Assembly: GCA_020532215.1 (NCBI GenBank)
Contig: JAJBBF010000157.1
Span: forward strand, 1-37,959
Reading direction: 5' to 3'
Source of the DNA: Candidatus Cloacimonadota bacterium
Lineage (GTDB): Bacteria; Cloacimonadota; Cloacimonadia; Cloacimonadales; Cloacimonadaceae
DNA: 37,959 nt
In this document: positions 1,030 through 17,430 of the stretch, piece after piece
How positions within the stretch are numbered: the stretch's first letter is position 1
How the letters are laid out: the number at the start of each line of letters is the position of its first letter
Notes under the pieces: generated by a model
What the model saw: the letters and a program-made list of their open reading frames with translations, nothing else
Databases searched by the model: none
Told to the model about the DNA's origin: nothing
Made by a program: the position numbers and the translations under genes

Positions 1030-3051
1030 TTAGTCCTCGATCTCCAGGGTCACGTTCCCTTCCAGGGAATCGATCATGAACTGGGCTGATTCGTTGAGTT
1101 CGCCCTCGGGGTATTTTTGCAGGAAATCCTTGAAGAGCTGGAGGGCCTGGGCTTCGTCTTTCAGCTCTTCCGAGATGATGAAGGCTTTCATGAAGGAAGC
1201 CCGGTAATCGTCGGAGCCGTTGGGGAAGTTTTTGATGATCTGGTCGTAGAAAGCGATGGCATCCTTGAAATTGCGCTGCCGGGCGGAGTTGTCGGCCATG
1301 GTGAAGAGTTCCTCGGCCTTGAGTTCAAGGCTGATCTTTTCGGGATACTTCACCAGGTTGAATTCCTCAAAGAGCTGCTGGGTGACCAGTTCCTGCTGGG
1401 AGGCCTGGCGCTGGTTTTTAAGGAGGCCATAGATGCGGGGTTCGATCTCGGTGAAGTTTTGGGCGGTGGCGGGGGTTTCCTCGAGGCTTTGGAAGAAGAG
1501 GATGTCGCCGGTGGCCGAGGTGAAAACGGGGCTGATGTAGCCGACGGGGTTGTCCCAGACCAGGTTGCTGAATTGCTCGTCGGGCCCGATACCCGTGATG
1601 ATGCCGTTGTCGTAGATGTTTTGCAGGTATCTGAGCTGCGGTTTGGAGGATTTTTCCGCGACCAGCCTGTCGATACGCTCCTGGTCGTCAAAACCGGCAT
1701 AGAGCGCATATTTGCTGCGGGCCCTTTCGGCGTCGTCGGCATCGGTGAACCAGAGCACCTGGATCTTGCGGTGGGCGGGGGTGCTGTATTCATCAATGTG
1801 TTCGTCATAATAGGCGCGGGCTTCTTCGCTGCTGACCTGAATGGAATCCACCACCAGCTGGCGGAAAGCCTGGTTCAGGATGTAGTAGCGCTGCATCTGC
1901 TCGAAGTCTGGGTTGCCCTGCAGATATTGGTCGTAGTCTTGCTCCAGCGCGTCGGCGTAGAGCAGGGAACGGATGAGCTCCTGGTCCAGCAGCTGTTTGG
2001 CGGCTTCGCCTTTGCTGAAGAAGAGCTGTTCCTGCTGGGAGAGCTGGGCGAAGCGGTCGAGGAGGGTGGCCACGGTGATATTGAGCTCGGGATTGGTGGA
2101 GGAGATCAGGTTGACGTCCATGATATCGCTGTTTTTGGCGCGGTCGAAGAGGTCGATCTCGTCCACGCGGGTGGTGTCCACCACCACGGCATACTTGGTT
2201 TTAAGGCGGTCCGTGAGGTCGTTCAGCAGCCTGGTTTCCACTCCCGGACGGGCGCGCTGCTCCAGCTCAGGCATCACTTCCTCGATGGGTTTCTGGCGGC
2301 CGGCTTTGTAATCCAGGGTCCGGAACACGTGCCAGCCGGTGCTGGTTTCAACGGGGCCGTGCACGGCCAGGCTGTCGGGCTGGGACTCGGCGATCAGTTT
2401 TTCCAGGGCAGGGTCGTTGCCCACCCCGGGAATGTTGCCGTTCAGCCGGATGTTCTTGATCACGCCTTTCAGGCCTTTGGTGTAGGCGTTCAGATTATAG
2501 GCATCGGAGACCTCGGCGAAGCTTTTGCCGGCGTTCAGTTCGGCCACCGCGGCCCGGGCGTCCGCCTCATCCTTGGCCTGGAGATAATTGATGGTGATGT
2601 TCGGGAACTCGTAGAAAGCCTGCTTATTGTTGTTGTAGTAATCCTGTTTGTCGGCTTCGGAAACGATCACCAGGTCGCTGACGTTGCGCTTGTAGTATTC
2701 CTGGATGAAGAACTGGCGTTTCCCGGCCGCTATCCTGGATGCGACCTGGGGATCCTGGGCCACGCCCAGCTGAAGTGCCTTGGCCATGAAGGCTTCTTCC
2801 ACGGCCATGATGTCCAGCACCTGGATCTGGCCATCCACTGTGCGGTATCTACCCTGCTGATTGACAGGCAGGTGGGAGATCTTGTTGTTCAGATCCTCCC
2901 GGGTGATCACCCCGCCGTCCCATTCGGCAAGGACATCAGAGTCATTGATCAGGTTTTGGTTTTTGACTTCGGTGGTAATGTCGTCCGCGAAAGAGGCGAC
3001 GAGGCCCAGGGTCAGGAAGAGGGCGAGTGCAAGCCAACGCGAGAAATGCAT
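1030..3051 (-). CDS. periplasmic parvulin-type peptidylprolyl isomerase (SurA/PpiD-like) with C-terminal TPR repeats
   Basis: This 673-aa protein begins with a Sec signal peptide (MHFSRWLALALFLTLGLVAS, cleavage near residue 22), so it should act in the periplasm. A SurA-type N-terminal chaperone region (about 35-125) is followed by a parvulin rotamase domain (about 130-270; GKSFAEVSDAYN ... GPVETSTGWHVFRTLD) and a second, more divergent helical/parvulin-like block from about 400 (ARAYYDEHIDEYSTPAHRKIQVLWF). The last 85 residues contain TPR-like helices (DAIAFYDQIIKNFPNGSDDY ... ALQLFKDFLQKYPEGELNES). Such proteins usually assist folding and delivery of outer-membrane proteins. The start is supported by AAGGAG (complement of 3058-3063). 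It diverges from the pilin gene with a 179-base shared upstream region. The TPR tail is not part of canonical SurA or PpiD. Family assignment is strong; the client proteins are unknown. Confidence 0.85.
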   Translation of the reverse strand: MHFSRWLALALFLTLGLVASFADDITTEVKNQNLINDSDVLAEWDGGVITREDLNNKISHLPVNQQGRYRTVDGQIQVLDIMAVEEAFMAKALQLGVAQDPQVASRIAAGKRQFFIQEYYKRNVSDLVIVSEADKQDYYNNNKQAFYEFPNITINYLQAKDEADARAAVAELNAGKSFAEVSDAYNLNAYTKGLKGVIKNIRLNGNIPGVGNDPALEKLIAESQPDSLAVHGPVETSTGWHVFRTLDYKAGRQKPIEEVMPELEQRARPGVETRLLNDLTDRLKTKYAVVVDTTRVDEIDLFDRAKNSDIMDVNLISSTNPELNITVATLLDRFAQLSQQEQLFFSKGEAAKQLLDQELIRSLLYADALEQDYDQYLQGNPDFEQMQRYYILNQAFRQLVVDSIQVSSEEARAYYDEHIDEYSTPAHRKIQVLWFTDADDAERARSKYALYAGFDDQERIDRLVAEKSSKPQLRYLQNIYDNGIITGIGPDEQFSNLVWDNPVGYISPVFTSATGDILFFQSLEETPATAQNFTEIEPRIYGLLKNQRQASQQELVTQQLFEEFNLVKYPEKISLELKAEELFTMADNSARQRNFKDAIAFYDQIIKNFPNGSDDYRASFMKAFIISEELKDEAQALQLFKDFLQKYPEGELNESAQFMIDSLEGNVTLEIED

Positions 3052-3230: not shown

Positions 3231-3674
3231 ATGCTCAGGAAACTGAAAAACCAGAAGGGTTTCACCCTGATCGAAGTTCTTGTGGTGGTGATCATCGTCG
3301 CCATCCTGGCCGCCCTGGCTGTTCCGATCTACATGCGCTACGTGGAGAAATCCCGTTCCAGCGAAGCTCAGACCGCCATCGCCGCCATCCGCAAGACCTA
3401 TGACGTTTACCGCCAGACCAACGGTACCACCCAGGATTACACCGTTGAACGCGCCATGAAGGAAACCAACCTCGGCGAAAGCACGGTCAAGAACTGGAAG
3501 TTCGAAGTAACCGGCAACCCGCCCAAAAAGTTCATCGCCACCTCAACCGAAGATTTCGCCGGCGGACCGGACAAGCAGGTCTGGTACGACGTTGACGATG
3601 CCAAGTTTCACGGCTATGGAGTGGATCAGTTCACCGACCCGAACACGGAAGGAGTAGAGACCGAAACTGAGTAA
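3231..3674 (+). CDS. pilA: type IV major prepilin (PilA/PilE-like)
   Basis: The 147-aa product has a class III prepilin signal: a short basic leader ending KNQKG (residues 6-10), the cleavage site before F11, then FTLIEVLVVVIIVAILAALA with the conserved Glu at mature position 5 and a hydrophobic N-terminal helix. The helix continues as a polar amphipathic segment (YMRYVEKSRSSEAQTAIAAI), then a short globular head ending in an acidic tail (VETETE). Length and layout fit a major pilin or GspG-like pseudopilin. It is the first gene after the sigma-54 promoter and has a strong AAGGAGG site about 8 bases before ATG, as expected of the abundant subunit. There is no C-terminal cysteine pair as in Neisseria or Pseudomonas pilins. 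PilA is preferred over GspG because a PilT gene follows immediately. Confidence 0.88.
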   Translation: MLRKLKNQKGFTLIEVLVVVIIVAILAALAVPIYMRYVEKSRSSEAQTAIAAIRKTYDVYRQTNGTTQDYTVERAMKETNLGESTVKNWKFEVTGNPPKKFIATSTEDFAGGPDKQVWYDVDDAKFHGYGVDQFTDPNTEGVETETE

Positions 3675-3689: not shown

Positions 3690-4749
3690 TTGACTATCCA
3701 CGAATTATTACGCTTCACAGCGGAAGCGGGAGCTTCAGACCTTCACATCGCGGCTGGCGCGCACCCCATGGTGCGCGTCAACGGCCGGATGAAACGGCTG
3801 AATCTGCCGATCCTTTCGGTGGAGGAAGTGGAGACCTTGGTTTTTGGGGTGATGAACGAAGTCCAGCAGGAAATGTTCAAAGAGCACCTGGAGATCGACT
3901 TTTCCACCAAACTCAGCAATGACGTCCGTTTCCGCGTGAACGCGTTCCATCAGATAAACGGGATATCATGCGCATTCCGCGTGATCCCCAATGAGATCAA
4001 AAGCTATGAGGAACTGCATCTGCCGGATATCCTGAAAAAGCTGACCACCAAGGAAAAAGGACTTATCCTGGTGACCGGCCCCACCGGCAGCGGCAAATCC
4101 ACCACCCTGGCCACGATGATCGACTCGATCAACGATTCCCGCTATTGCCACATCATCACGGTGGAAGACCCCATCGAGTTTGTGCACAAGAGCAAGAACA
4201 GCCTGATCAACCAGCGCGAACTGGGGCACGACACCTGGAGTTTCACGGCAGCGCTGAGAAGCGCTTTGCGTGAGGATCCGGACGTGATCCTGGTGGGCGA
4301 GATGCGTGACCTGGAAACGGTGTCGCTGGCTTTGACAGCGGCCGAGACGGGCCATCTGGTATTTGCCACCCTGCACACCGGCAGCTGCACCAAATCCATT
4401 GACCGGATCATAGACATGTTTCCCAAGGAACAGCAGCAGCAGGTTCGCTCCATGCTCTCAGAATCCCTGGAGGCAGTGCTTTCGCAAACCTTGCTGCCCA
4501 CCAAGGACGGCAAGAGCCGCGTTCCGGCCCTGGAGATCATGGTGGCAAACACCGCCGTGCGCAACCTGATCCGCGAGGAAAAGACCTACCAGATACCCTC
4601 CATCATTCAGGCCAGCACCAAGGAAGGAATGCAGACCCGCGACCAGTCCCTGTACAACCTGGTGATGAACAACCTGGTGGAACGGACCATCGCCGAAGAA
4701 TTCGCGGACAATCCCAAGCAGTTTGCCTCAGGCGCGGGATTTTCCTGAT
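3690..4749 (+). CDS. pilT: twitching motility retraction ATPase PilT
   Basis: The 352-aa product is a secretion hexamer ATPase of PilT type, which drives pilus depolymerisation at the inner membrane. It has an N-terminal PAS-like domain (SDLHIAAGAHPMVRVNGRM), Walker A GPTGSGKST (130-138), Asp and His boxes, Walker B ILVGEMRDLET (200-210), and the PilT-specific C-terminal motif AVRNLIRE (289-296, consensus AIRNLIRE) that PilB lacks. It starts with TTG at 3690, 7 bases after GGAGG (3678-3682); there is no better ATG. The TGA at 4746-4748 overlaps the next ATG (TGATG), so translation is probably coupled. Its place directly after the pilin gene, away from pilB and pilC, differs from the common pilBTC grouping. 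Confidence 0.95.
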
Positions 4750-5203
4750 GAACGACCATACACAACGCAGATCGGTGAAGCCGCTTGGCCTGCTGGCCGG
4801 GCAAAGCGGCATCACCCTGCTGGAAACCCTGGCGGTGGTGGCCGTGATCGCGGTGATGCTGGTAGCCATCTATATCGGGGTGGTGTACGCAGAAAGGCAA
4901 CTGCTCATCAATTACCGGGACCGGGTGGCCACCCTGCTGATCACCGGCGAGCTGGAGATGGAGTATTACCGCCATTCACGCAGCAAACCCTTTGAATTGC
5001 AGGTGAACCGGGAGTACATCATCGACGACCTCAATCCCGACCACATCTTGCGCGGAAAAATGACCATTGCCAGCAGGAACGCCCAGGAGTCATCCAACGA
5101 GCAATTGCTGAACTATGTCTATCTGGAGGCCACCCTCAGATGGACCGAGCCAAATTCCCAAACCGAGAGATTTATCCGCATGCGGGAAGATTATTTCCTT
5201 TGA
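4748..5203 (+). CDS. type IV minor pilin (PilV/GspI-like pseudopilin)
   Basis: This 151-aa protein carries a class III signal: leader of 21 residues ending GQSG, then ITLLETLAVVAVIAVMLVAI with Glu at mature position 5 and a long hydrophobic helix. The remainder (YAERQLLINYRDRVATLL ... FIRMREDYFL) is a small mixed domain without recognisable motifs. Its size and place between PilT and two other prepilin-like genes suggest part of a minor-pilin priming complex, corresponding to PilV or GspI; the exact correspondence is uncertain. The start overlaps the pilT stop (TGATG at 4746-4750) and the stop overlaps the next start in the same way (5201-5205). Confidence 0.8.
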   Translation: MNDHTQRRSVKPLGLLAGQSGITLLETLAVVAVIAVMLVAIYIGVVYAERQLLINYRDRVATLLITGELEMEYYRHSRSKPFELQVNREYIIDDLNPDHILRGKMTIASRNAQESSNEQLLNYVYLEATLRWTEPNSQTERFIRMREDYFL

Positions 5204-5814
5204 TGATGAAAGCCAAAAACAGATTCGAAAATTCCCTGCTGGGCCGCCAACGCGGCGTTACACTGGCTGAACTGATCGTGGTGATGCTGATCTCGGTGAT
5301 GCTGATCTTTGTGGCAGCCGTCGGGATCGGAACCTTTTTCCGCAAATACAAGGAGCTGACAGCCTGGGCTGAACTTCAAAAGGACGCCCTTGACTGTATC
5401 AACCTGATCAAGAATGGAGTGCCGGTCGGCAGCGGTGACAACATGGAATATTACGGCGTGGCCAATGCCATGAAGCTTCAGCTCACCAATACCACCACCA
5501 TCTCCGGAACCGGCCTGCGCATTACCCCGCCCACCGATCAAGGCTTGGAAACCCCCGATTTCGCTCACTTTTACCTTTACGACGGCGTTGTGCGCTGCAC
5601 CTATGTACACCACGGGGTCCAGGTGGCTTCCCCGCTGTACATCTTTCCCAAGCAGGAAAACCTGGATGACATGGTGGTGGACAAGTTTTTGTTCACCAAA
5701 GTCAATTCTGACCAGGACCTGCTGGCCGTAAGAGTGGAGCTGCACGCCCGGGTCAAGACCGGAGCGGGGAGTTACCGCGCGATCAAATTCCAAACCAAAA
5801 TGGTCAAGAAATGA
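5203..5814 (+). CDS. type IV minor pilin (PilW/GspJ-like pseudopilin)
   Basis: ATG at 5203 (or 5206) overlaps the previous stop codon as TGATGATG and gives a 203-aa protein; the frame also opens upstream at 5140, but that would bury the prepilin leader inside the preceding gene. The leader ends GRQRG (14-18), followed by VTLAELIVVMLISVMLIFVA with Glu at mature position 5. The globular part of about 150 residues has a beta-rich pattern (LYDGVVRCTYVHHGVQVASP). Size and gene order match PilW or GspJ, the second minor pilin of the initiation complex at the pilus tip. Class is certain; the specific homology is inferred. Confidence 0.78.
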   Translation: MMKAKNRFENSLLGRQRGVTLAELIVVMLISVMLIFVAAVGIGTFFRKYKELTAWAELQKDALDCINLIKNGVPVGSGDNMEYYGVANAMKLQLTNTTTISGTGLRITPPTDQGLETPDFAHFYLYDGVVRCTYVHHGVQVASPLYIFPKQENLDDMVVDKFLFTKVNSDQDLLAVRVELHARVKTGAGSYRAIKFQTKMVKK

Positions 5815-5844
5815 GGAAGCTCAAATCCCGCAAAGGGAGGTCAA

Positions 5845-7731
5845 ATGTTTAAGATGTTCAAACGTCCCAGCGGAAACATCGCCATCGCGATGCTTCTGGC
5901 TGTGATCGGAGCGATGTCTGGATTCACCCTGTCCAGCCTGGCAATGCGCGATGTGGTGGCTTTCCAATTCGATTTTGAAGGTTTCCAGAGCATGATCTTT
6001 TTACGCAGCGAGGCCTACCGCGGCCAGAAGATCGCGCAGAAACTGGGCACGGTGATCATCCCCATCCGCACCTCGGAACGCAACATCGAGATCGTGAACT
6101 CGGCGATGAGCAAGACTTTCAGGATCCAGTCCCTGCTGTCCAAAGGGGGCTTGAACGTTGTCACCGAAGATGTGGTGATGGGAGACCAGGCCCAGCAGAC
6201 CCAGGTGAAATCGCTGGTCCGCTCCAAATCCGGGATCGGGCAGACGGCGATGATGAACCCCAAGTATTCCATGATCCGCAAATACGGGATCTATACCCTG
6301 GAAACGGAGACCTTTGCAAAATTCATGTATTTCACAGACACCGACGAATCGCCCAACGCCACCAACGTCTATTTCCACGGTCCGGACATTCTGCACGGGC
6401 GCGTGCACAGCAATACGGACATCTGGATCAAAAAGACCTCCGGCGGCGTGAACAATGGCTGGCCGGTGTTTTACGGCTGGGTTTCCACCACCGGTGAGGT
6501 GATCTCTTTCTCCGGCTCCTACTCTGAGAGTGAAGTATTCCAGGGCGGCCTTTCCGAGGGTTACTCCTATACTATTTTCCCCGACGAGGCCTCCAGCATC
6601 CGCAGAAGGAACAATACTGTCGGCCCGGTTTACAATGACCCCGACCATATAATGTTCGTGGACGTTGAAGGCGCTGGTTACACAGCCTATCTGGGCGAGG
6701 TGCAGGATCCCTACCGGGAATACGCAGAAGTGTACAATCCCTATCCCCCAGTGGATCCGGACACCTACCTTTACCGCAACCAATACGACGTCCGGGACAC
6801 GGTTTGGTCCTTTTACAACAACGGCACTGCCTTGAACACATCCAAGTGGGTCTGGAACAAACTCTGGATCAAGGGCAATTTCGGTTCCTACCAGACCTGG
6901 GGCTGTTCCGACACCCTCTTTCTGCTGGATGACATCACGCTGGTGAACACCGCCCCGGGAACGGATCCCATTGCCAACCGCACCGACGTGGTGGGGCTGG
7001 TGGCGGAGAAATCCATTGTGGTCAAATACGGTTACCGCGACCCGGTGGATTCCATGCGCGTGCATGGCACTTCGGGAGCTGATACCGGTTTCGGCGGCAT
7101 CTGGATCTACGCGGCCATGGCAGCTTTGGGCGATGACGGGCCAAACAGCTCCCATGGCGACGGCGTTTTCACCTTTGAATACCAGCATCCCCACCCCTCC
7201 GTGCCCGACGTTCAAATCAACGACGTCACCTACACCAAGATCGACCTGCACCGCTACCGCTTCCCCCACATACCGGGACAGCTCTGGGCGACCAACACCC
7301 CCGGCAACCGCAACCTGAGGATCGACTACCCCTGGTACAATCCCCTCTGGCCGGAACGCGTACCCTATCTGGAGCGTGGCTACATCAACGTGTACGGGTC
7401 CATTTCCCAGCGCCGCAGAGGTTTTGTGCACCGCAGCTATTACGACACGGAGTGGCCTTCAGACAACAACTGGAACCAGCCCATCGACTATTGCGGGCCA
7501 TCCAGTTCCCCTAATGCCGTGGGCCACAACGACCCGGTCTTCGGCTTCCAGCTGACCAATGCCAATTTCCCCGGAGCTTCCGGTTCCGGAACAGGCTATA
7601 AAAAGAATTACCACTACGACGACAGGTTCTACAGGATCTCGCCGATCGATTTTCCGGAAGTGAACCGCAGGGATGAAACTCCCTTCTCCGCGGTTAACTG
7701 GGTGATCAAACGCCCGCCGGAATTCCTTTAG
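5845..7731 (+). CDS. oversized minor-pilin-like protein (PilX/GspK position), possible pilus tip protein
   Basis: The 628-aa product starts MFKMFKRPSG and continues NIAIAMLLAVIGAMSGFTLS, a class III-like leader and hydrophobic helix. It lacks Glu at mature position 5, as GspK does, the subunit that caps the pseudopilus. About 570 residues of mainly extracellular-looking sequence follow, rich in Tyr, Trp, Gly, Asn and Pro, with HGPDILHGRVHSNTDIWIKK near 180-200, reminiscent of DUF4900-type domains in large exported proteins, and a repeated-looking stretch of aromatic turns toward the C-terminus. GGGAGG (5835-5840) precedes the ATG. It follows two ordinary minor pilins and precedes pilM, so it probably completes the minor pilin set and could present a large tip domain, a role PilY1 plays elsewhere. 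PilX proteins are usually under 250 aa. Confidence 0.65.
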   Translation: MFKMFKRPSGNIAIAMLLAVIGAMSGFTLSSLAMRDVVAFQFDFEGFQSMIFLRSEAYRGQKIAQKLGTVIIPIRTSERNIEIVNSAMSKTFRIQSLLSKGGLNVVTEDVVMGDQAQQTQVKSLVRSKSGIGQTAMMNPKYSMIRKYGIYTLETETFAKFMYFTDTDESPNATNVYFHGPDILHGRVHSNTDIWIKKTSGGVNNGWPVFYGWVSTTGEVISFSGSYSESEVFQGGLSEGYSYTIFPDEASSIRRRNNTVGPVYNDPDHIMFVDVEGAGYTAYLGEVQDPYREYAEVYNPYPPVDPDTYLYRNQYDVRDTVWSFYNNGTALNTSKWVWNKLWIKGNFGSYQTWGCSDTLFLLDDITLVNTAPGTDPIANRTDVVGLVAEKSIVVKYGYRDPVDSMRVHGTSGADTGFGGIWIYAAMAALGDDGPNSSHGDGVFTFEYQHPHPSVPDVQINDVTYTKIDLHRYRFPHIPGQLWATNTPGNRNLRIDYPWYNPLWPERVPYLERGYINVYGSISQRRRGFVHRSYYDTEWPSDNNWNQPIDYCGPSSSPNAVGHNDPVFGFQLTNANFPGASGSGTGYKKNYHYDDRFYRISPIDFPEVNRRDETPFSAVNWVIKRPPEFL

Positions 7732-7763: not shown

Positions 7764-8834
7764 ATGAAGAAAGCGAAAACGACCAAGTTCAAAGAATCGG
7801 TCGGGATCGACATCGGCAGCCACAGCGTCAAGGTCGTGCATCTGAAAAGGCTGCACGAAGGTTTCAAGCTGCTGAATTATGAGATCCGGCCGACAGTTCC
7901 GATTGGTGTGGAATACGTGCCCAGTGACCTCAGACCGGACCGCTTTGCCCCGGTGCTGATCGAGATCATGAAAACACTGCACATTAATCCCAAGAAGATC
8001 CAGCATCTGGTAACCTCTGTGGGAGGCGACAACACCAGCATCAAGCAGATCAAGACCATCTTTCTGCCGGATGATGAACTGGAATCCGCCCTGTTCTTCG
8101 AAGCGAAGAAGCACATCCCCATCAGCGGCACGGATATGGTTCTGGACTACCAAGTGATCGATGTCGAAGAAAAGACCAACAATATGAACATCCTCCTGGG
8201 TGCCACTTCCAAAGAACTGCTGAACCAGCACACCAACGCGCTGGTGACAGCGGGATTGAACCCCAACATTGTGGATATCGATTCCCTGGCTGTGGCCAAC
8301 AGCTTCGCCCTCAACGCCTTTGTTGAGGAAGGTGTGTACATTCTGCTCAATCTGGGTGCCCACCGGACCAACATGATCATCTGGGGCCCGGAAGCCAAAT
8401 TCTTTGCCCGCGATATTCCTTTCGGCGGCTACAACTTCACCCGGGACATCATGCGTAAGCGCCAGATGGAATGGGAAGACGCGGAAAACCACAAGATGGA
8501 GTGGGGCCTGCTGGACAACCCCAATGTAGCCAGCGCCCAAACCATCAGCATGCTGGACATTTCCGAGAAATCCACCGAAGACGTGATCGTGGAAGAGCTG
8601 CGCCGTTCACTCCGCTTTTACGTCAAAGAGGCCGGCAACAGCGATTTCCGTAAGCTCTACCTCATGGGCGGAACCGCCAAGCTGAATGGGCTGCGGGAAT
8701 ACATCGAGGAAAAACTGAGCATTCCCACAGACATTTTCATGCCGTTCATCAACGTGGAAATGCCTGAAAAATTCGCTGATAAAAAGGACCCGCAACTGGC
8801 CCTGGCGATAGGCCTGGCCATGCGGCTGGAATAG
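7764..8834 (+). CDS. pilM: type IV pilus inner-membrane platform ATPase-fold protein PilM
   Basis: This 356-aa cytoplasmic protein has the actin/FtsA-like fold of PilM: the phosphate-1 motif VGIDIGSHSVKVV (13-25), FLPDDELESALFFEAKKHIP, the central phosphate-2 region VDIDSLAVANSFAL, and the adenosine motif LYLMGGTAKLNGLREYIEE. PilM forms a cytoplasmic ring that binds the N-terminal tail of PilN and links the motor to the PilN/PilO/PilP alignment complex. It begins the pilM-N-O-P-Q set in the conserved order. AGAGGAACG before ATG provides a ribosome site. Length is normal for the family. Confidence 0.92.
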   Translation: MKKAKTTKFKESVGIDIGSHSVKVVHLKRLHEGFKLLNYEIRPTVPIGVEYVPSDLRPDRFAPVLIEIMKTLHINPKKIQHLVTSVGGDNTSIKQIKTIFLPDDELESALFFEAKKHIPISGTDMVLDYQVIDVEEKTNNMNILLGATSKELLNQHTNALVTAGLNPNIVDIDSLAVANSFALNAFVEEGVYILLNLGAHRTNMIIWGPEAKFFARDIPFGGYNFTRDIMRKRQMEWEDAENHKMEWGLLDNPNVASAQTISMLDISEKSTEDVIVEELRRSLRFYVKEAGNSDFRKLYLMGGTAKLNGLREYIEEKLSIPTDIFMPFINVEMPEKFADKKDPQLALAIGLAMRLE

Positions 8835-8845
8835 GGGACGTGAGT

Positions 8846-9451
8846 ATGACACCGAATTTTTACTTCAAGATAAACCTGAACAAATACGGCGAGATCAAGC
8901 TCCAAACCGAGCGGGAAAACAGAACTTTCCGCAATGCCATCATTGGCTTCCTGATCGGGGCACTGATCATGTTTGCCGGTCTGTGGATACTGAACAACTC
9001 CCTCAAAAAGAAAGTGGAAAACCGCCGGAAATACTACGCCAAGATCAATGCCCAACTGGACGAATACGAATCCAGCGGCGAATATCTGTCTGTGGACGAT
9101 GTCGACCAGCTGGCGGAGACCTTCAACGACCGCATCTTCTGGACCAAAAAACTGGAAGCCCTCAGCCAGGAGATCGACAGGCAGTTGGCCGTGCGCAAGT
9201 TCAATTTCAACAACGGCGTGCTGACCCTCAACGGGATCATCGAGGTGGACAGGAACATCCAGGAAGGTGACGTAACCTTCGACTTTGTCCAGCGCCTGAA
9301 AGCCAATCCTGAGATCAGCGACGATTTCCCGGAGATCAAATCCGGCTCCAAGATCAGGCAGATGGCCAAAGACACCGAGATCCTGGAATTCCTGATCGAA
9401 TGTTACAGCCGCGATTCCTCGGCTCTGGAAACCAAGGTGGTGGAACAATGA
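8846..9451 (+). CDS. pilN: type IV pilus alignment-complex protein PilN
   Basis: The product (201 aa from ATG 8846; an in-frame GTG at 8840 is possible, but GGGGA at 8834-8838 is better spaced for the ATG) has a short cytoplasmic N-tail containing FKINLN, the equivalent of the INLLP motif by which PilN contacts PilM. One membrane helix (about 29-50, NAIIGFLIGALIMFAGLWIL) and a periplasmic coiled coil (KKKVENRRKYYAKINAQLDE) lead into a small ferredoxin-like domain. Its place directly after pilM supports the assignment despite weak sequence conservation. The stop overlaps the next start (ATGA, 9448-9451). Confidence 0.82.
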   Translation: MTPNFYFKINLNKYGEIKLQTERENRTFRNAIIGFLIGALIMFAGLWILNNSLKKKVENRRKYYAKINAQLDEYESSGEYLSVDDVDQLAETFNDRIFWTKKLEALSQEIDRQLAVRKFNFNNGVLTLNGIIEVDRNIQEGDVTFDFVQRLKANPEISDDFPEIKSGSKIRQMAKDTEILEFLIECYSRDSSALETKVVEQ

Positions 9452-10002
9452 AAGAGAAATACCTGATCTTCATCCTGGGCATGATCCTGATCTCCGTGGT
9501 GTTCTTCCTGCTGGCCGGAAACTCGCTAACCAAACATCTGGGCGAGATCGAAAGCTATGACAACAAGATCAAGACCACCCTGGAAAAACTCAACAGCGCC
9601 ATGATCATGGACCAGCAGCTCAGCCAGTTCCGGGAGATCCTGGACAACAGCCTGACCACGGAATCCAGATTCTCGGTGGATGAGATGAACGACTTCCAGA
9701 AGCGGATCGAAGCCTTGCGCGATCAAAACCAAATGAAGCTGATCAAGATCTCGGATTCCAACAAATTCACCGAAGCCGGCATGATCGAAACCACATACAG
9801 CCTGGAACTCCAGGGCACCTTCCGGCAGATGGGCCAATTCATTTCCGAGCTGGAAGCCCTGAACCACATCATCAAGATCCAGTATCTGGACGTGAGCCCG
9901 GCCCAGATCGCGGAAAAGAATGAGAGCACAGATTCCGGCGCGCCCAACATCTACCGGATAACCATGGAACTTTCCATATTCAAAGTGAAGAAGGGGGCCT
10001 AA
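9448..10002 (+). CDS. pilO: type IV pilus alignment-complex protein PilO
   Basis: ATG at 9448 overlaps the pilN stop (ATGA) and gives 184 aa. The frame extends upstream to 9400, but that start would place an unlikely peptide ahead of the membrane helix. One N-terminal helix (about 5-23, YLIFILGMILISVVFFLLA), then a coiled coil (residues about 30-100) and a ferredoxin-like periplasmic domain (ETTYSLELQGTFRQMGQFIS ... IQYLDVSP), the usual PilO layout. PilO heterodimerises with PilN in the periplasm and controls pilus assembly. It is two bases from the next start, so these genes are tightly coupled. Confidence 0.8.
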   Translation: MKEKYLIFILGMILISVVFFLLAGNSLTKHLGEIESYDNKIKTTLEKLNSAMIMDQQLSQFREILDNSLTTESRFSVDEMNDFQKRIEALRDQNQMKLIKISDSNKFTEAGMIETTYSLELQGTFRQMGQFISELEALNHIIKIQYLDVSPAQIAEKNESTDSGAPNIYRITMELSIFKVKKGA

Positions 10003-10003
10003 G

Positions 10004-10549
10004 ATGCAATTCAGATATTTGAAAGACCTCGCCTTGGCCCTGCTGTTCATAGCCTTGATCGCCTTCGCCATCCGGCTGGTCACCTACAACGCCAAGATGG
10101 CTAACATTCCGGACCAGTCCAAACACACCAATGAATCCGTCTCGGACACCCTGCGCGCCAGGATTATGTCCATTGAGGAATCCATCCTGGAACGAAAAAA
10201 CACCGTCTTCACGGTTGCCAAGGATCCCCTGCGCCAGGGCAATATCATCAAAGACCGCTTTGACCTGGCCAAGGAATTCGAAAACGCCCTGCGTAACACC
10301 TTCCGCCCCACCGGTACCTATATAGACGAGGAAACGGGCAAACGGCTGGTCACGGTGGAATTCCAGGACAAGATCTACACCGCCGGTGTGGGAGACGTGA
10401 TCGAAGGAAGGCGGATCAGCTGGATCAACGAGCAAAACGTTGGCATCTATTATGGCGGACCGCAGACCCTGAGCATTCAGGCCCGTCCTGAGATGCCTGA
10501 TTTCTCGGAAGAGGATCTCGTTAAACAAAACACGGATCAGAACTATTAA
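10004..10549 (+). CDS. PilP/GspC-like alignment protein, membrane-anchored
   Basis: The 181-aa product lies between pilO and pilQ, where PilP is expected. It has an N-terminal membrane helix (about 8-24, DLALALLFIALIAFAIRL), a disordered-looking linker, and a C-terminal beta domain (RLVTVEFQDKIYTAGVGDVI ... GIYYGGPQTLSI) with the strand pattern of the homology region shared by PilP and GspC, which contacts the secretin N-domains. Proteobacterial PilP is a lipoprotein. Here there is no lipobox cysteine, and the single-helix anchor is more like GspC. The role (link between PilN/PilO and secretin) is inferred from position and the C-terminal domain. Confidence 0.65.
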   Translation: MQFRYLKDLALALLFIALIAFAIRLVTYNAKMANIPDQSKHTNESVSDTLRARIMSIEESILERKNTVFTVAKDPLRQGNIIKDRFDLAKEFENALRNTFRPTGTYIDEETGKRLVTVEFQDKIYTAGVGDVIEGRRISWINEQNVGIYYGGPQTLSIQARPEMPDFSEEDLVKQNTDQNY

Positions 10550-10581
10550 TCATGAAAAAATATAACGAAGCTGGAGAAAAT

Positions 10582-12006
10582 ATGTTGAACGCTTTCGTGT
10601 CCAAACGCTTTATAATCTGCACTCTGGTGATGGCTTTCCTCTTGGGGATCGCGGCTCTGGGTGCACAATCAAGCGCTCTCAGAAAACCTGTGACCCTCAA
10701 CAGTGTGGACGAACCTTTGTCCTCAGTGCTAAGCACGTTGGCCCGCCTCAGTGGCACCAACATTGTTTTGGCCACCGACCAGGCAGGAAGCCTGGAAAAA
10801 GAGCAGCAACGGGTAACCGTCAGCATCAAAGACGTGCCCATCGAAACCGCCGTTTCACTGGTGGCAAAATCCGCCGGCCTGTCCTACAAGATCTACGGAG
10901 ACAACACTTTCCTGGTGGGAACCCAGCAAAACATTTCCGAATCTTCCGGCCAGCGCAACCACATCATCTATTTGAACAACCTAGATGCCGCCAAAGTGAG
11001 TGCCGCTTTGTCCGAAACAGACGGCACGGTGGTACCCCTGGAAGGGCAGAACGCCCTCATGGTGTACGGAAACACCGATACCTTTGAAAGCATCAGGGAC
11101 TTGGTGCAGATGATCGACGTGGCCCAGAAGCAGATCGAGATCCGGGTCCGGCTGATCGAGATCAGCCTCACTGACGCCAAGAAATTTGGCGTGGATTGGA
11201 GCCGGCTGAACCACCTGACCACCATCATCGCGGAAGATCCCGTGAATGCCGCCGGAACCGGGCTACCCTTCGATTTCAGCGATCCGGATGGTTATCTGCC
11301 CTATGGCAATCCCACCGATTTCGAGATCCTGCCCGACGAGCAGGTCTTCCAGAGGATCAACGGCTTCAATGACATCGGCCATTTCAGCCGCCAGCTAACC
11401 GCCTTTGACATCACCATCGACTGGTTGCTGGAAAACAACGCCGCCAAGCTGCTTACGGACACCCGCGTGACCGCCCTGAACGGCAACGAAGCTCAGATCC
11501 ATATCGGTGAAGTGGTGCCCTTCGTGGTTACGGACAACGATAAGCAGATCCAGGTCGAGCGCGAAGAAGTGGGCATTATGCTGGTTGTAACCCCCACGGT
11601 CAACGACAACGGCCAGATCACCGCGCACATCGCGCCGGAAGTGAGCTCTGTAACCGAACTGGTGGGCGGCTACGTGCCCCGCACCAAGGTCCGCCGCATC
11701 TCCTCCACGGTAACCGTTCCCAATGAGCACAAGATCATTGTGGGCGGCCTTCTGAGCTCCACCATCAGCCAGAAAGTGAACAAATTGCCGCTGCTGGGCG
11801 ATCTGCCTTTCATCGGCAGGCTCTTCCAACACCGCCAGGAACAGGTGGAAAATTCCGATCTGATCATCGAGATCACGCCTCGCCTGATCACTGCCGACCA
11901 GATCCGCCTCGATCCCGAGGTCCAAAGGTACAAGGAATTGGGCGAACCGGTTGTGGACGAACGCCTCACCCGCCGCCTCATCAAATTTGACAACGACGAA
12001 GAATAA
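10582..12006 (+). CDS. pilQ: type IV pilus secretin PilQ (short form)
   Basis: The start at ATG 10582 (474 aa) is chosen because GGAG lies 5 bases upstream and it leaves a clean signal peptide (MLNAFVSKRFIICTLVMAFL, cleavage after GALGA-type residues near 29); an ATG at 10552 would add 10 polar residues. An STN-like short domain (LNSVDEPLSSVLSTLARLSG) and an N1 domain (HIIYLNNLDAAKVSAALSET) precede the secretin core, with the family signatures LLENNAAKLLTDTRVTALNG, VGIMLVVTPTVNDNGQITAH and the C-terminal VPNEHKIIVGGLLSS ... KLPLLGDLPFIGRLFQ. It forms the outer-membrane pilus channel. It lacks the AMIN peptidoglycan-binding domains of proteobacterial PilQ, which are about 700 aa. Function is certain; peptidoglycan anchoring must be supplied by another protein. 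Confidence 0.92.
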   Translation: MLNAFVSKRFIICTLVMAFLLGIAALGAQSSALRKPVTLNSVDEPLSSVLSTLARLSGTNIVLATDQAGSLEKEQQRVTVSIKDVPIETAVSLVAKSAGLSYKIYGDNTFLVGTQQNISESSGQRNHIIYLNNLDAAKVSAALSETDGTVVPLEGQNALMVYGNTDTFESIRDLVQMIDVAQKQIEIRVRLIEISLTDAKKFGVDWSRLNHLTTIIAEDPVNAAGTGLPFDFSDPDGYLPYGNPTDFEILPDEQVFQRINGFNDIGHFSRQLTAFDITIDWLLENNAAKLLTDTRVTALNGNEAQIHIGEVVPFVVTDNDKQIQVEREEVGIMLVVTPTVNDNGQITAHIAPEVSSVTELVGGYVPRTKVRRISSTVTVPNEHKIIVGGLLSSTISQKVNKLPLLGDLPFIGRLFQHRQEQVENSDLIIEITPRLITADQIRLDPEVQRYKELGEPVVDERLTRRLIKFDNDEE

Positions 12007-12017
12007 GGGGAAGACCA

Positions 12018-14276
12018 ATGAGAAAACTTAAACCATTATTACCCCTTCTGACTTTGCTGGTGCTGTCGCTGCTCGTGTTTTCTTCCTGCGACCGCCGCCT
12101 GCCGCCTCCCACCGGAGGTCTCACCACCGATCCCGCCGAGATCCGCATCATCACAAAGATCTCGGCCACGCCGGACACCATCTACAGCGACAACAACATT
12201 ACCTATTCCGATATCAGCGTGATGGTGAAGGATGGCGAGGGCTTTGGCGTACCCGCACAGATAGTGAACTTCCGCACCGATGTGGGGCGAATTCTCACCG
12301 CGGTTGCAACTGACAGCAGCGGGGTGGCCACCACAACTTTCTGGGACCATGGAGAAAGCGGAAACGCCACCATCACGGCGGTGGTTCGCAACTACTCCGA
12401 TACCGATACCAACGTGATCGCCTCCGCCGATACGGCCGAAGTGCAGGTGTTCATCGACGAAGTGCCGGAGGTTGAGACAGTAAGCCTCAATTTCCTTTCC
12501 CAGGCCAATCCCTACCCGATGAGCGTGATGCAGACCACGGAGATCAACGCCCTGGCCACCAATATCCTGGGCGATAACGTTCCGGACAACACCCTTATCA
12601 CCTTCTCCTGCACCATGGGCAGGTTCGTGGATGACGCCGGAAACGTGCTTGGAGTATCCATCGTATCCAAAACCATCAACGGGCGAGCTTACGCCAAATA
12701 CAACGCCGGAGCTGTTGCCACCACCACCCCGGGGGTGGATAACGCCTTTGTTACGGCCTCCATCGGCGACGTGAGCAGCAACCGGGAAGTGCTGATCAGG
12801 CCCGGGAATCCCTTCACGATCGGACTGCAGTCCTTTGTGGAGGTGGATGGTGAAATGATCGAAGCCGATACCAGTTTCGTGGCCAGCCCGAACCACATCT
12901 TCATGCGTGCCACCCTCAACGATCCGCACGGCAACCCCTGCCAGATCAAACCGGTGCGTTTTGAAACGGATCTGGGAACCTTCATCAACACCACCCAGTC
13001 CGTTACCATCAATACAGACAACATGGGCGAAGCCCAGGTACGCTTCACTCCCGGCCTCACTGCCGGAGCCGCCACCATCAAGGCGTTTGCCAACAACGAC
13101 ACCCTGCAGACCCAACTGATCTTCAACGTCACTTCCGACGACATCCATTCCATTTCCTTCACCCAGGAAGGCCAGATCGATCTTGACGTCGCCAACACCG
13201 GCGGTCAGGAGTCAGCGATTCTGCGGGTGAAACTGAAGGATATCAACGGCAACCTGATCGACTCTCCGCAGGACGTCTATTTCCGCATTATGAACACCGC
13301 TCCGCCCGCCGGAGCCAATCTGAACAATTATCCCGTGGGAGACAGCGTTTTGGTGGTATCCACCGGAGGTGAAGCCCAGATATCGGTAAACAGCGGCACC
13401 CAGTCCGGAATCCTGATCATCAGGGCTTCCTGTACATCCAATAGCGGCAGATGGGTGCGCGCCACCAAGGCCAATATCGTCATCAAAGCCGGACCACCGG
13501 CTCAGGTATTGCCCTATATCGGAGGTTTCAACACCGGCGAAAACATGGGTGGCGGTCTCTGGCGCATTATCGCCCAGGCAGTGGTTAAAGACGCCTATGG
13601 AAACCCGGTTGGACGAGGAACATCTGTGTTCTTTGAGCTCATCAACGACGTCACCAACTGCCAGATCGGCGCCAACGCCTATACCGGAAACGTCAGTGTT
13701 GATGAAGACTCACTGGAGGGAGTGGCCTTCACCACCCTCACCTATTCCGGGATCTACACCAACGACTGGATAACCATCCGGGCCAGCACCGGTGCCATCC
13801 AGGGCGAAGGTGTTGATGGCTACGCGACTGTCCAGCTGCCGCTGAACGATCCGCGTTTCGAGATCCAGGCCAACCCCGCTTCGCTGATCTTTGGCGACAC
13901 CGCCCCCGATTGGAAATCCGCCGATATCTATGCCGTGCTAACAGACGGGCAGGGACAGCCGGTGGGTAATTCTGCGATCATGCTGCTCTGTACCAAAGGT
14001 GAATTCGTGGCGATACCAGGATTCAACAACAACTATCCCTCAGATCCTGCCTGGCGGATCATAACCGATGACGGGAGCTACGGCACCGGCAACTACGCTG
14101 GTTGGGCCTGGGGCCAGATCCGCTACCACCGGCTGGAATGCCCGGCTGGAGATCCGATGACCCAAACGCCCGGCCAGACCAGCGGAATCATCATTGGCCG
14201 TATCCTGGGAACCAACGTGACGGCGGAAACCAACGTAGCCCTCTACCGTTACTGGACTCCCAACCCTCCGTTCTAA
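12018..14276 (+). CDS. Ig-like (Big_1/invasin-type) repeat lipoprotein within the pilus operon
   Basis: The 752-aa product has a lipoprotein signal: basic N-terminus, hydrophobic core and lipobox VFSSC with Cys24 followed by Asp. Downstream are six or seven Ig-like domains of about 100 residues with the Big_1 hallmarks 'ISVMVKDGEGFGVPAQIVNF', 'LNDPHGNPCQIKPVRFETDL', 'RVKLKDINGNLIDSPQDVYF' and 'VVKDAYGNPVGRGTSVFFEL', each with a D-G/N-P turn, G-x-F/Y strand and A-x-V/T-F end. Big_1 domains occur in intimins and invasins. The gene lies 11 bases after pilQ and before pilB, so it probably belongs to the pilus machine, perhaps as an envelope-anchored adhesin or a secretin-supporting factor. Asp at +2 is an inner-membrane retention signal in enterobacteria but may not be here. 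No named pilus protein is known to me with this structure. Confidence 0.8.
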   Translation: MRKLKPLLPLLTLLVLSLLVFSSCDRRLPPPTGGLTTDPAEIRIITKISATPDTIYSDNNITYSDISVMVKDGEGFGVPAQIVNFRTDVGRILTAVATDSSGVATTTFWDHGESGNATITAVVRNYSDTDTNVIASADTAEVQVFIDEVPEVETVSLNFLSQANPYPMSVMQTTEINALATNILGDNVPDNTLITFSCTMGRFVDDAGNVLGVSIVSKTINGRAYAKYNAGAVATTTPGVDNAFVTASIGDVSSNREVLIRPGNPFTIGLQSFVEVDGEMIEADTSFVASPNHIFMRATLNDPHGNPCQIKPVRFETDLGTFINTTQSVTINTDNMGEAQVRFTPGLTAGAATIKAFANNDTLQTQLIFNVTSDDIHSISFTQEGQIDLDVANTGGQESAILRVKLKDINGNLIDSPQDVYFRIMNTAPPAGANLNNYPVGDSVLVVSTGGEAQISVNSGTQSGILIIRASCTSNSGRWVRATKANIVIKAGPPAQVLPYIGGFNTGENMGGGLWRIIAQAVVKDAYGNPVGRGTSVFFELINDVTNCQIGANAYTGNVSVDEDSLEGVAFTTLTYSGIYTNDWITIRASTGAIQGEGVDGYATVQLPLNDPRFEIQANPASLIFGDTAPDWKSADIYAVLTDGQGQPVGNSAIMLLCTKGEFVAIPGFNNNYPSDPAWRIITDDGSYGTGNYAGWAWGQIRYHRLECPAGDPMTQTPGQTSGIIIGRILGTNVTAETNVALYRYWTPNPPF

Positions 14277-14393: not shown

Positions 14394-16103
14394 ATGACAT
14401 ATAATCCCCAGTTTGCCCGCTTTGGAGAGATCTTGGTCCACGAAGGATACGCCTCCGAAGATCAGGTCAAGGAAGCCTTGATCAAGCAGAGCAATTTTGG
14501 CCTGAAGATCGGCGAAACAATGATCAAGCTCGGTTATCTCAATGAAAAACAATTGCTTTCGGTTCTCAATATGCAGCTCGGATACGAGATAGCCATGGAA
14601 AACGAGCTGATGGACCTGGACATCGATGTGGTCAAAATGATCCCGGAACCATATGCCAATGAAAACAGGGTGGTCGCCCTGCGCGAAGATGCCGACGGCA
14701 TTGTGGTGGCGATGGCCGATCCGGACAACCTAACCGTTCTGGACAGCCTCAAGAAGATCCTGGGCAAAAACGTGAAGCCAAAGCTGATCTCCGAGACAGC
14801 GCTGCACGACACGATAGAAAAATACTATAAAAGCATCCGCACCACCTCCGAAGTGGAAGACGCCGTGGGCGGCTTCGATTTCGTGGCTATGGACGACGAC
14901 GAGAATGAGATCACCATCTCCGCTGCCTCCGGTGATGCCGACGCGCCGATCGTTAAACTGCTGAACTTGATCATCAACGAAGCCATCAAATCCAACGCCA
15001 CGGACATCCACATCGAACCTCTGGTCAAGAACACCCGCGTCCGCTACCGCGTGGACGGAGCGCTCCGCGAAGTAATGACGCCCCCCATCGGCATGCATCC
15101 CGGCCTGATCTCCCTGGTGAAAGTGATGTCCAAGCTCAACATAGCCGAGCGGCGTTTGCCCCAGGATGGTCACATCTCGCTTAAAACCTCACTCAAAAGC
15201 GTGGACGTGCGTGTTTCCATCACTCCCACAGTGTTGGGTGAAAAGGTCGTGATGCGTCTGCTGGACAAGGGCGAGTTCGGTTTCAAACTCACCACCCTCG
15301 GTTTCGAGCAGGAGGACATGGATATCTTTGCCCGCATCATTCGCCGGCCCTATGGGATCATCATCGTTTCCGGACCCACCGGCAGTGGTAAATCCACCTC
15401 CCTACACGCCGCACTGAAAGAGATCGAGGATATCGAAACCAACATCATCACGGTTGAAGACCCCGTCGAATACCGCCTTGAAGGCATCACCCAGATCGAG
15501 ACCAAGGAACAGATAGGCCTTACCTTCGGTTCCGCGCTCCGCTCCGTGCTCCGCCAGGACCCCGATATCGTGCTCATCGGTGAGATCCGCGACGAAGAAA
15601 CGGCCGATATCGCCATCAAGTTTTCCCTCACCGGCCACCTGGTCTTTTCCACTCTGCACGCCAACGACGCCCCTTCCACCATCACCCGTTTGATCGACAT
15701 CGGCATCAAGCCCTACCTGGTTGGCTCCTCGCTCAGCCTGGTGATGGCCCAGCGCCTGGTTCGCAAGATCTGCCCTTACTGCATCATGGATTACAAACCC
15801 AGCGAACAGGAGCTCAGCGATTGCGGGCTTAGCCCCGAGGATGCCGCCAAGATCAATTTCAAGATGGGCCGTGGCTGCGTGCACTGCGACAACACTGGTT
15901 TTTCCGGACGTACCGGCATCTTTGAACTGCTGATCGTGAATCCTGAGATCCGCAGCCTGATCTACGACGGCGGCAATCAGGACCTGATCCGCGAAGCAGC
16001 TCTCCGCGCGGGCATGCGTACCCTGCACGATGCCGCCATGAACAAGATGGTCAAAGGTGTTACAACCATCCGCGAAGTCATCAAGATGACTATCGTGGAA
16101 TAA
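14394..16103 (+). CDS. pilB: type IV pilus extension ATPase PilB
   Basis: This 569-aa protein has the full PilB/GspE layout: an N-terminal MshEN-type domain (about 1-145; FGEILVHEGYASEDQV, IGETMIKLGYLNEKQL), a linker, an N2 domain (SNATDIHIEPL, 200-210), and the ATPase core with Walker A GPTGSGKST (327-335), Asp box TVEDPVEY, Walker B VLIGEIRDEETAD (393-405) and His box STLHANDAPST. The zinc tetracysteine insert is Cys460/463 and Cys495/498. The MshEN region suggests possible c-di-GMP control, but the binding residues were not verified. It powers pilin extraction from the inner membrane with PilC. AAGGAAG precedes the ATG by 6 bases. PilT lacks both the long N-terminus and the tetracysteine, so the two motors are clearly distinguished. 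Confidence 0.95.
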   Translation: MTYNPQFARFGEILVHEGYASEDQVKEALIKQSNFGLKIGETMIKLGYLNEKQLLSVLNMQLGYEIAMENELMDLDIDVVKMIPEPYANENRVVALREDADGIVVAMADPDNLTVLDSLKKILGKNVKPKLISETALHDTIEKYYKSIRTTSEVEDAVGGFDFVAMDDDENEITISAASGDADAPIVKLLNLIINEAIKSNATDIHIEPLVKNTRVRYRVDGALREVMTPPIGMHPGLISLVKVMSKLNIAERRLPQDGHISLKTSLKSVDVRVSITPTVLGEKVVMRLLDKGEFGFKLTTLGFEQEDMDIFARIIRRPYGIIIVSGPTGSGKSTSLHAALKEIEDIETNIITVEDPVEYRLEGITQIETKEQIGLTFGSALRSVLRQDPDIVLIGEIRDEETADIAIKFSLTGHLVFSTLHANDAPSTITRLIDIGIKPYLVGSSLSLVMAQRLVRKICPYCIMDYKPSEQELSDCGLSPEDAAKINFKMGRGCVHCDNTGFSGRTGIFELLIVNPEIRSLIYDGGNQDLIREAALRAGMRTLHDAAMNKMVKGVTTIREVIKMTIVE

Positions 16104-16122: not shown

Positions 16123-17376
16123 ATGCCGAATTTTGCCTATATCATCAAGGACGCCAAAGGTGCCAGGGTGGAGGGAATCCTCAAAGCCGATTCCCTGGAC
16201 CAGGCGGTGGATAAACTGGCCAAGGAAGGAAGCACGATCATCTCTGTGAAAGCCGCCTCAGAAGGCGCTTTCAAGGGCAAGCTCTCCCTCTCGGACAAGA
16301 TCATGCTCTCCATCTACAAATGGCGCACGGGAGTTTCGCTTAAAACCCTGGTATTCTTCACCCGCCAGCTCTCCACCATGTTCTCCGCCGGCCTCACCAT
16401 CGAGAAATCCATCACCGACCTGGAGAAAGCCGAAAAGAACGCCAAGTTTGCCAAGGTCCTGCGCCGCCTCTCCGACGACATCCGCAAGGGTTATTCGCTC
16501 TCCGAGGCCATGGAACAGCATCCCGGCGTGTTCAACCCACTCTATGTGGCGTTGGTTACCGCCGGAGAGGTTTCCGGAACGCTGCACACAATTTTGGATG
16601 AGCTTTCCGACTATCTGGAAAAGATCGAGGACACCCGCCGCAAAGTGCGCTCCGCGATGGCCTATCCCATCTTCATCCTCGTCTTCCTGGCCCTCGTGGT
16701 CTGGTTCCTATTCTACTACGTGGTGCCTATGTTTGCCGATGTCTATGAAGGCTTCGATGCCGAATTGCCAATGCCCACCCAGATCGCCATCGGCATCAGT
16801 AACTTCATCACCAACAACGTTTTCCTGGCTATTCTCCTGATCCTCGGCTTGGTCGTGGGGCTTTGGGTGATCAATCTCACGGACAAGGGACGTTTCGTTT
16901 GGGACAGCATCAAGCTCAAGCTGCCGATCTTCGGCGGCGTGACCACCAACTCCATTATGAGCAAATTCTCCCGCACTTTCTCCATTCTCATGGCTGCCGG
17001 CGTGCCCATCATGGACACCATGGAGCTTACCGAAAACGTGGTCCAGAACGCTGTGATCGAAGGCGGCATCCGCCGCGCCAGAGTGATGGTTAAGGAAGGT
17101 TACGGAGTCGCCAACGCGTTCCGCCGCACAGGCCTGTTCCCGCCCACCCTGCTGCAGATGATCGGCACCGGGGAGGAAACCGGAGATATGGACAAACTGC
17201 TGGGCAAAGCCGCGCAGTTCTACGAAAAACTGGTGGACGCCGTGATCGAGCGCCTCACCTCGCTGATCGAACCTCTGCTGATCATCCTCATGGCAGCTGT
17301 GGTCGGCAGCATCATCATCGTGGTCTATCTGCCCATCTTCAGCCTGGGTGAAGCCATGACCCAAGGCATCAAGTAA
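16123..17376 (+). CDS. pilC: type IV pilus inner-membrane platform protein PilC
   Basis: The 417-aa product has the PilC/GspF form: an N-terminal cytoplasmic ARG domain (FAYIIKDAKGARVEGILKAD), then two T2SSF repeats (about 73-195 and 275-398), each ending in a membrane helix (AYPIFILVFLALVVWFLFYY; a middle helix near 230-250; PLLIILMAAVVGSIIIVVYL). Characteristic signatures are FFTRQLSTMFSAGLTIEKSI and the second-repeat counterpart KFSRTFSILMAAGVPIMDTM, with MIGTGEETGDMD before the last helix. PilC is rotated by PilB and PilT to add or remove pilins. It is the last gene of the cluster; a strong terminator follows 26 bases later. Confidence 0.95.
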   Translation: MPNFAYIIKDAKGARVEGILKADSLDQAVDKLAKEGSTIISVKAASEGAFKGKLSLSDKIMLSIYKWRTGVSLKTLVFFTRQLSTMFSAGLTIEKSITDLEKAEKNAKFAKVLRRLSDDIRKGYSLSEAMEQHPGVFNPLYVALVTAGEVSGTLHTILDELSDYLEKIEDTRRKVRSAMAYPIFILVFLALVVWFLFYYVVPMFADVYEGFDAELPMPTQIAIGISNFITNNVFLAILLILGLVVGLWVINLTDKGRFVWDSIKLKLPIFGGVTTNSIMSKFSRTFSILMAAGVPIMDTMELTENVVQNAVIEGGIRRARVMVKEGYGVANAFRRTGLFPPTLLQMIGTGEETGDMDKLLGKAAQFYEKLVDAVIERLTSLIEPLLIILMAAVVGSIIIVVYLPIFSLGEAMTQGIK

Positions 17377-17402
17377 CCCCCTATAACCTCAACATATTAC
17401 AA

Positions 17403-17430
17403 GGCCGGGATTTCCCGGCCTTTTTTGTTT
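17403..17430 (+). terminator. rho-independent terminator of the pilus operon
   Basis: GGCCGGGA (17403-17410), a two-base loop and TCCCGGCC (17413-17420) form a perfect stem, followed by TTTTTTGTTT. It ends the transcription unit that begins at the sigma-54 promoter. Confidence 0.92.

Follow-up and report, generated by a model that had tools for sequence, protein, structure and literature searches.

A giant minor pilin without Glu5 as the proposed tip subunit of the Cloacimonadota type IVa pilus

What role might a prepilin-like protein of 628 amino acids (aa) play in a type IVa pilus (T4aP)? The question is raised by a gene at positions 5845-7731 of a 37,959-nucleotide stretch of DNA (hereafter the window) from a bacterium of the phylum Cloacimonadota (assembly GCA_020532215.1, contig JAJBBF010000157.1), which is contig 6 of a 178-contig, 1.95-Mb metagenome-assembled genome (MAG). 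The gene is part of a complete T4aP operon, in which it follows the genes for PilA, PilT, and two minor prepilins and precedes those for PilM, PilN, PilO, PilP, PilQ, an immunoglobulin (Ig)-like protein, PilB, and PilC. Based on the evidence presented here, its product is probably a modular minor pilin at the very tip of the Cloacimonadota T4aP, where it would take on the roles of both PilX and PilY1 and carry a large inserted module as the ligand-binding head. An original prediction made from the sequence of the window had called the protein the third prepilin-like product; it is indeed prepilin-like, but it is the fourth in the operon when the PilA-like product encoded at 3231 is counted.

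Gene integrity, leader peptide, and absence of Glu5

The gene and its product have the following features:

5835-5840, + strand: ribosome-binding site GGGAGG of the 628-aa open reading frame (ORF)
5845-7731, + strand: giant minor pilin lacking Glu5, proposed pilus-tip subunit, 628 aa (intact ORF, synteny, AlphaFold2 model, homolog alignment)
5845-5874, + strand: class III leader peptide, residues 1-10, Gly10 as position -1 (invariance of Gly-1; cleavage predicted)
5866-6045, + strand: long alpha-1 helix, residues 8-67 (AlphaFold2 model)
6079-6306, + strand: putative pilin beta-sheet, four strands, residues 79-154 (AlphaFold2 model and its topology)
6292-6438, + strand: sub-threshold match to DUF4900 (PF16241), residues 150-198 (E 7e-4, 20.2 bits vs. 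a cut-off of 29.4)
6322-7644, + strand: inserted beta-rich module, residues about 160-600 (~440 aa), common to secreted proteins of the type IX secretion system (T9SS) type
7645-7728, + strand: C-terminal segment with the last strand, residues 614-622, missing from the secreted paralogs (AlphaFold2 model, paralog comparison)

The ORF has zero internal stops, a GC content at third codon positions of 0.754, and a codon bias matching that of its neighbors. Homologs occur throughout the phylum with identities from 92% down to ~30%, which places the ORF far beyond chance; judged by named relatives, the genome belongs near Ca. Syntrophosphaera thermopropionivorans (73% identity).

The N-terminus (MFKMFKRPSG followed, after the predicted cleavage site, by NIAIAMLLAVIGAMSG) combines a basic leader of 10 aa with Gly at -1 and Ala at +5. 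Gly-1 is present in 52/52 aligned homologs, with leaders of 7-13 residues (mode 10). The mature Glu5, which the original prediction had reported as lacking, is found in 0/52 homologs, 45 of which have Ala at +5, whereas it is kept in the homologs of both flanking prepilins, mpI (4748-5203; 23/25) and mpJ (5203-5814; 26/26). A prepilin peptidase gene was found in 43/50 genomes of the family, including 32/32 good ones. Judged from the sequences, this pattern of leader and Glu5 is the signature of a minor-pilin complex with a Glu5-less cap. Minor-pilin tip complexes are known to have such a cap, and modular pilins to display adhesive heads (PMC10191384, PMC8179133). Such Glu5-less capping subunits are GspK and PilX (PMC7541494, PMC10191384), and the residue is missing from PilX of Pseudomonas aeruginosa, Neisseria gonorrhoeae, and Myxococcus xanthus (PMC7541494). 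Thus, the likeness to GspK drawn in the original prediction stands in that both proteins lack Glu5, but its loss is not peculiar to GspK. The N_methyl profile (PF07963) had 0 matches to the 628-aa protein and 42 homologs, as expected for a Glu5-less subunit, since this profile is an aid to detection and not a requirement. PilFind failed to recognize the Glu5-less minor pilin ComZ too (PMC6561018).

Predicted structure

The AlphaFold2 model of the 628-aa protein, predicted as a single chain like all structures here and with 52 homologs in the alignment, has a mean predicted local distance difference test score of 84.5 and a predicted template modeling score of 0.77. Behind the long N-terminal helix, it contains strands at residues 79-84, 89-100, 118-129, and 146-154, followed by the beta-rich module. 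Homology to the secreted paralogs stops near residue 600. The last strand (614-622) is therefore part of the pilin and would complete its sheet. The large extra domain on a tip-type subunit that had been proposed is thus recovered as a module of ~440 aa, in a protein whose gene follows those of the two Glu5-bearing minor pilins, the place of GspK/PilX. With the full model, Foldseek searches of the PDB and viral libraries gave zero matches at E <= 1e-3, for which reason we leave the fold of the module unnamed and do not claim a beta-solenoid. A 42-row profile searched against all PDB chains likewise detected no solved relative at E <= 10.

Co-occurrence with the pilus machinery

We analyzed 123 Cloacimonadota genomes, mostly MAGs. 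PilM scored above the cut-off in 98/123 of them, and all 98 encode a member of the tip-pilin family. Conversely, 24 of the 25 genomes without PilM also lack the tip pilin, the exception being a copy in genome G048 that ends at a contig edge. This co-occurrence (Fisher p 1e-24, although the genomes are related and the p-value overstates their independence) indicates that the protein acts like an obligatory component of the pilus. In the pil loci fetched, the order PilA-PilT-mpI-mpJ-giant tip pilin-PilM-N-O-P-Q-Ig-PilB-PilC is kept phylum-wide, and the tip-pilin gene constantly lies directly after mpI and mpJ and before PilM. The retractable pilus assumed in the original prediction is borne out by the retraction ATPase encoded in the same operon. 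The prediction had also seen no PilY1, and indeed 0/123 Cloacimonadota genomes had a match to the PilY1 profile above the cut-off, in a search that lacked a positive control as the 14 control genomes were also silent. Within the 628-aa protein, the C-terminal propeller of PilY1 (PF05567) was not matched.

Two genomes of 99% completeness each, G017 (a congener) and G083, have neither PilM nor the tip pilin nor the secreted carrier of the module described below. This joint absence suggests that the pilus system was lost as a whole.

The tip-pilin gene can also be multiplied. It is duplicated two- to threefold within the operon, and solo copies are scattered elsewhere; extra copies stand in tandem in loci L037, L038, and L040, and alone beside unrelated genes in L041, L042, and L044. 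These extra copies look like alternative tips. Sediment Cloacimonadota have two to four giant tip-pilin genes in tandem outside the pil operon (L039:866-6828, L040:7217-13885, L045, and L046), with one copy in L039 interrupted into pieces of 205 and 321 aa. In two related genomes, solo or paired extra tip pilins (L043:7380-11194 and L044:7806-9638) are located beside GAPDH-like (MPTIAINGFGRIGRL) and aldolase-like genes, both named by inspection of the sequence.

The inserted module, also found in secreted proteins

Within the protein, conservation is highest in the core of the module, with a pairwise identity of 0.51 compared to 0.26 for the pilin sheet. Trp, Tyr, and Phe together make up 12-16% of the module, and its net charge is acidic in nearly all homologs, down to -44.

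The genome of the window encodes a second carrier of the module on contig 20 (L035:7099-9921, - strand), which has residues 163-594 in common with the 628-aa protein at 57% identity. This product of ~930 aa starts with an ordinary signal peptide, its BNR-type propeller is interrupted by the module, and its C-terminal domain is of the FlgD/Por_Secre_tail type. The AlphaFold2 model of a homolog (L085) consists of strands (25-155), the module, further strands (633-839), and the C-terminal domain, and Foldseek searches with this model returned many propellers, e.g. the NanA sialidase. The type IX component SprA was found in 46/50 genomes of the family. The combination of a pilin part with a module that also occurs outside pilins, here in ~930-aa propeller proteins with a T9SS-type C-terminal domain, is what characterizes a modular pilin.

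Secreted module carriers were detected in at least 40 genomes, every one of which has the tip pilin, and in none of the 24 pilus-less genomes, though G017 and G044 retain SprA (p 2e-5 for the association of carrier and pilus, a value weakened by the relatedness of the genomes). The propeller part of the L035 paralog was found in module-carrying proteins only, except for one short fragment. In tip pilins as well as secreted carriers, the same 38 module positions show a conservation of at least 93%, and hence the conserved surface does not serve pilus assembly alone. In an approximately unbiased (AU) test with 48 rows and a simpler model, a single clade of secreted carriers was rejected (p 1.8e-5). 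Without four outlying loci (L132, L133, L099, and L115), a single origin was not rejected (p 0.62), and adding back L099 and L115 alone gave p 0.09. These results support at least two carrier changes, not the 5-6 changes counted on free trees. No viral carriage of the module was found.

Comparison with known tip subunits

Several known systems share parts of this architecture. Like GspK/XcpX, the tip pseudopilin of the type II secretion system, the protein lacks Glu5, is encoded after GspI- and GspJ-like genes, and has an extra domain in the pilin sheet, and its fold weakly matches the XcpGHIJK pseudopilus. However, the insert of GspK is alpha-helical and located between strands 3 and 4 (PMC6561018), whereas that of the 628-aa protein is beta-rich and precedes the last strand. 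In P. aeruginosa and M. xanthus, a PilX without Glu5 tops the minor-pilin stem and PilY1 provides the large head; in Cloacimonadota, a single polypeptide is found, with no PilY1 gene detected and the PilX_N profile unmatched. The modular PilB and PilC of Streptococcus sanguinis (PMC8179133, PMC9934059) resemble it in combining a pilin module with a large functional one that is likely located at the tip, but there the adhesive module is C-terminal, while in Cloacimonadota it is inserted in the sheet and its fold family is left unnamed. The S. sanguinis PilB study also described modules common to pilins and PilY1-type propellers (PMC8179133). The same kind of module sharing is seen here, although the Cloacimonadota propeller is unrelated and has a T9SS-type tail.

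Family membership in GspK, PilX, or DUF4900 is unsupported by profile searches of 42 homologs. The original prediction had pointed to GspK and DUF4900 for comparison: GspK was not matched, leaving no ground for assignment to this family, and DUF4900 aligned weakly with ~50 residues of the module, below the curated cut-off (20.2 vs. 29.4 bits). Among the homologs, 27/42 had a DUF4900 match, the best with E 3.6e-6.

Evaluation of alternative explanations

Several observations weigh against a tip pilin with an adhesive head. The GspK profile (PF03934) had no match among the 42 family members in Pfam (E <= 1) and NCBIfam searches, nor did the PilX profile (PF14341) match any of the 42. The pilin fold is weakly matched, the best sensible PDB matches in Foldseek being to the pseudopilus XcpGHIJK (one chain, prob 0.60, E 1.1) and to chains of the XcpV/XcpW complex. 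Neither sequence nor structure searches identified the module. Moreover, adhesin heads are often variable, yet no other part of the protein is as conserved as the module. Its conserved, acidic, and aromatic-rich character fits a constant ligand better than a variable adhesin or a DNA receptor. A more radical objection is that the protein is not a pilin at all but a periplasmic or surface protein with an ordinary signal peptide or anchor, encoded in the operon by chance, as the missing N_methyl match could suggest. We consider this very improbable: the short basic leader of 7-13 residues ends in an invariant Gly-1, a continuous helix of 60 residues (8-67) is followed by pilin-like strands in the AlphaFold2 model, the gene has a fixed place after two prepilins, and the secreted paralogs begin with ordinary signal peptides that are clearly different. 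On the sequence level, the site is thus that of a prepilin, as originally proposed.

Other explanations accept the pilin but assign a different function to its module. It could be a DNA-uptake receptor at the tip of a competence pilus, binding DNA that retraction then delivers to ComEA/ComEC. The model for this is ComZ of Thermus thermophilus, a large Glu5-less minor pilin (Gly5) with an extra beta-solenoid domain inserted between its penultimate and last strands (PMC6561018), which is alike in its proposed tip role, the absence of Glu5, and the predicted place of the module before the last strand. A conserved head would suit an invariant ligand such as DNA, and ComEC and DprA are encoded in 45/50 and 46/50 genomes of the family, respectively, but both are widespread in bacteria, as seen in the control genomes, and hence carry little weight. 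ComZ is matched neither by sequence nor by fold and belongs to a separate competence set, whereas the Cloacimonadota gene is part of the main pilus operon phylum-wide. The acidity of the module and its additional presence in T9SS-type secreted propellers make a ComZ-type DNA receptor less likely, and we regard this function as rather doubtful. A mainly structural module, which would plug the closed secretin and prime assembly with no outside ligand, would agree with the strict co-occurrence with the machine, the high conservation, and the absence of PilY1, the proposed plug former in M. xanthus (PMC7541494). Nevertheless, the conserved residues persist in secreted proteins without a pilin part, and the tandem and scattered extra copies suggest a variety of ligands, so that we find this role no more probable than DNA binding. 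The chances of the module being an enzyme, e.g. a polysaccharide- or glycan-acting beta-helix used both at the tip and in secreted form, appear slim. Its beta-rich fold and the (nearly) invariant polar residues D181, H188, D192, D363, E388, R405, D467, H469, E504, and R511 would be compatible with catalysis, but Pfam and NCBIfam returned no enzyme family, the fold search had no match, and H188 is not retained by the secreted carriers, which most often have Arg at this position. Our best hypothesis for the module of this modular minor pilin is that of a putative adhesin or PilY1 stand-in.

The pil operon and its surroundings

The remaining genes of the operon are:

3231-3674, + strand: major pilin, PilA-like (N_methyl, 39 bits)
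3690-4748, + strand: retraction ATPase of the PilT/PilU family (TIGR01420, 476 bits)
4748-5203, + strand: minor prepilin mpI in the GspI/PilV place, Glu5 present
5203-5814, + strand: minor prepilin mpJ in the GspJ/PilW place, Glu5 present, ATG overlapping the mpI stop
7764-8834, + strand: PilM (TIGR01175, 186 bits)
8840-9451, + strand: PilN-like (position and synteny; profile search without match)
9400-10002, + strand: PilO (PF04350, 28 bits)
10004-10549, + strand: PilP-like (position and synteny; profile search without match)
10552-12006, + strand: secretin PilQ/GspD
12018-14276, + strand: Ig-like (Big_1/Invasin_D3) protein of the pil operon, probable lipoprotein
14394-16103, + strand: assembly ATPase, PilB-like (sequence and synteny)
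16123-17376, + strand: platform protein, PilC-like (sequence and synteny)

The operon ends with a good intrinsic terminator 3' of PilC (17401-17422). For mpI and mpJ, family searches returned the generic N_methyl motif alone, and therefore the names GspI and GspJ rest on position and the presence of Glu5. The products in the PilN and PilP places had no convincing match in Pfam and NCBIfam, which means that both are divergent in the phylum. Of the complete Cloacimonadota pil loci fetched, nearly all encode a Big_1 and Invasin_D3 protein of ~750 aa between pilQ and pilB, making it a possible secretin-associated part of the machine. A SurA-like gene (1030-3051, - strand) is divergent from pilA and is kept beside the pil operon in much of the phylum. 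No anti-phage system was found.

Proposed mechanism and implications

We infer the following sequence of events. The prepilin peptidase PilD would cut after Gly10, and the Glu5-less alpha-1 helix would be placed above the two Glu5-bearing, GspI/GspJ-like minor pilins. Assembly would begin at this tip, as with GspK and PilX, and the ~440-residue module, which interrupts the pilin sheet ahead of its last strand, would pass through PilQ and be displayed at the tip, where it could bind a fairly constant ligand, with PilT retraction pulling on the contact between module and ligand. One polypeptide would thereby cover the work of PilX plus PilY1 in Cloacimonadota.

More speculatively, and on balance unlikely, the tip pilin and the T9SS-type secreted propellers may form a matched pair. 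Either the module could bind to itself, with surface copies acting as docking sites for the pilus tips of kin or neighbors, or both carriers could bind a common ligand, with the propeller as a detachable PilY1-like tip or surface partner; the module would have been exchanged between the carriers more than once.

The T4aP of diderm bacteria is usually described with separate tip pilins and PilY1, while here an entire phylum has a complete, PilT-equipped T4aP in which no PilY1 was found and a giant tip pilin appears obligate instead. The reuse of the module in T9SS-type propellers, only in genomes with the tip pilin, connects two surface systems in a way that can be tested directly. Cloacimonadota are uncultured and often syntrophic anaerobes, and the findings provide a concrete candidate for mediating their contact with partners or substrates.
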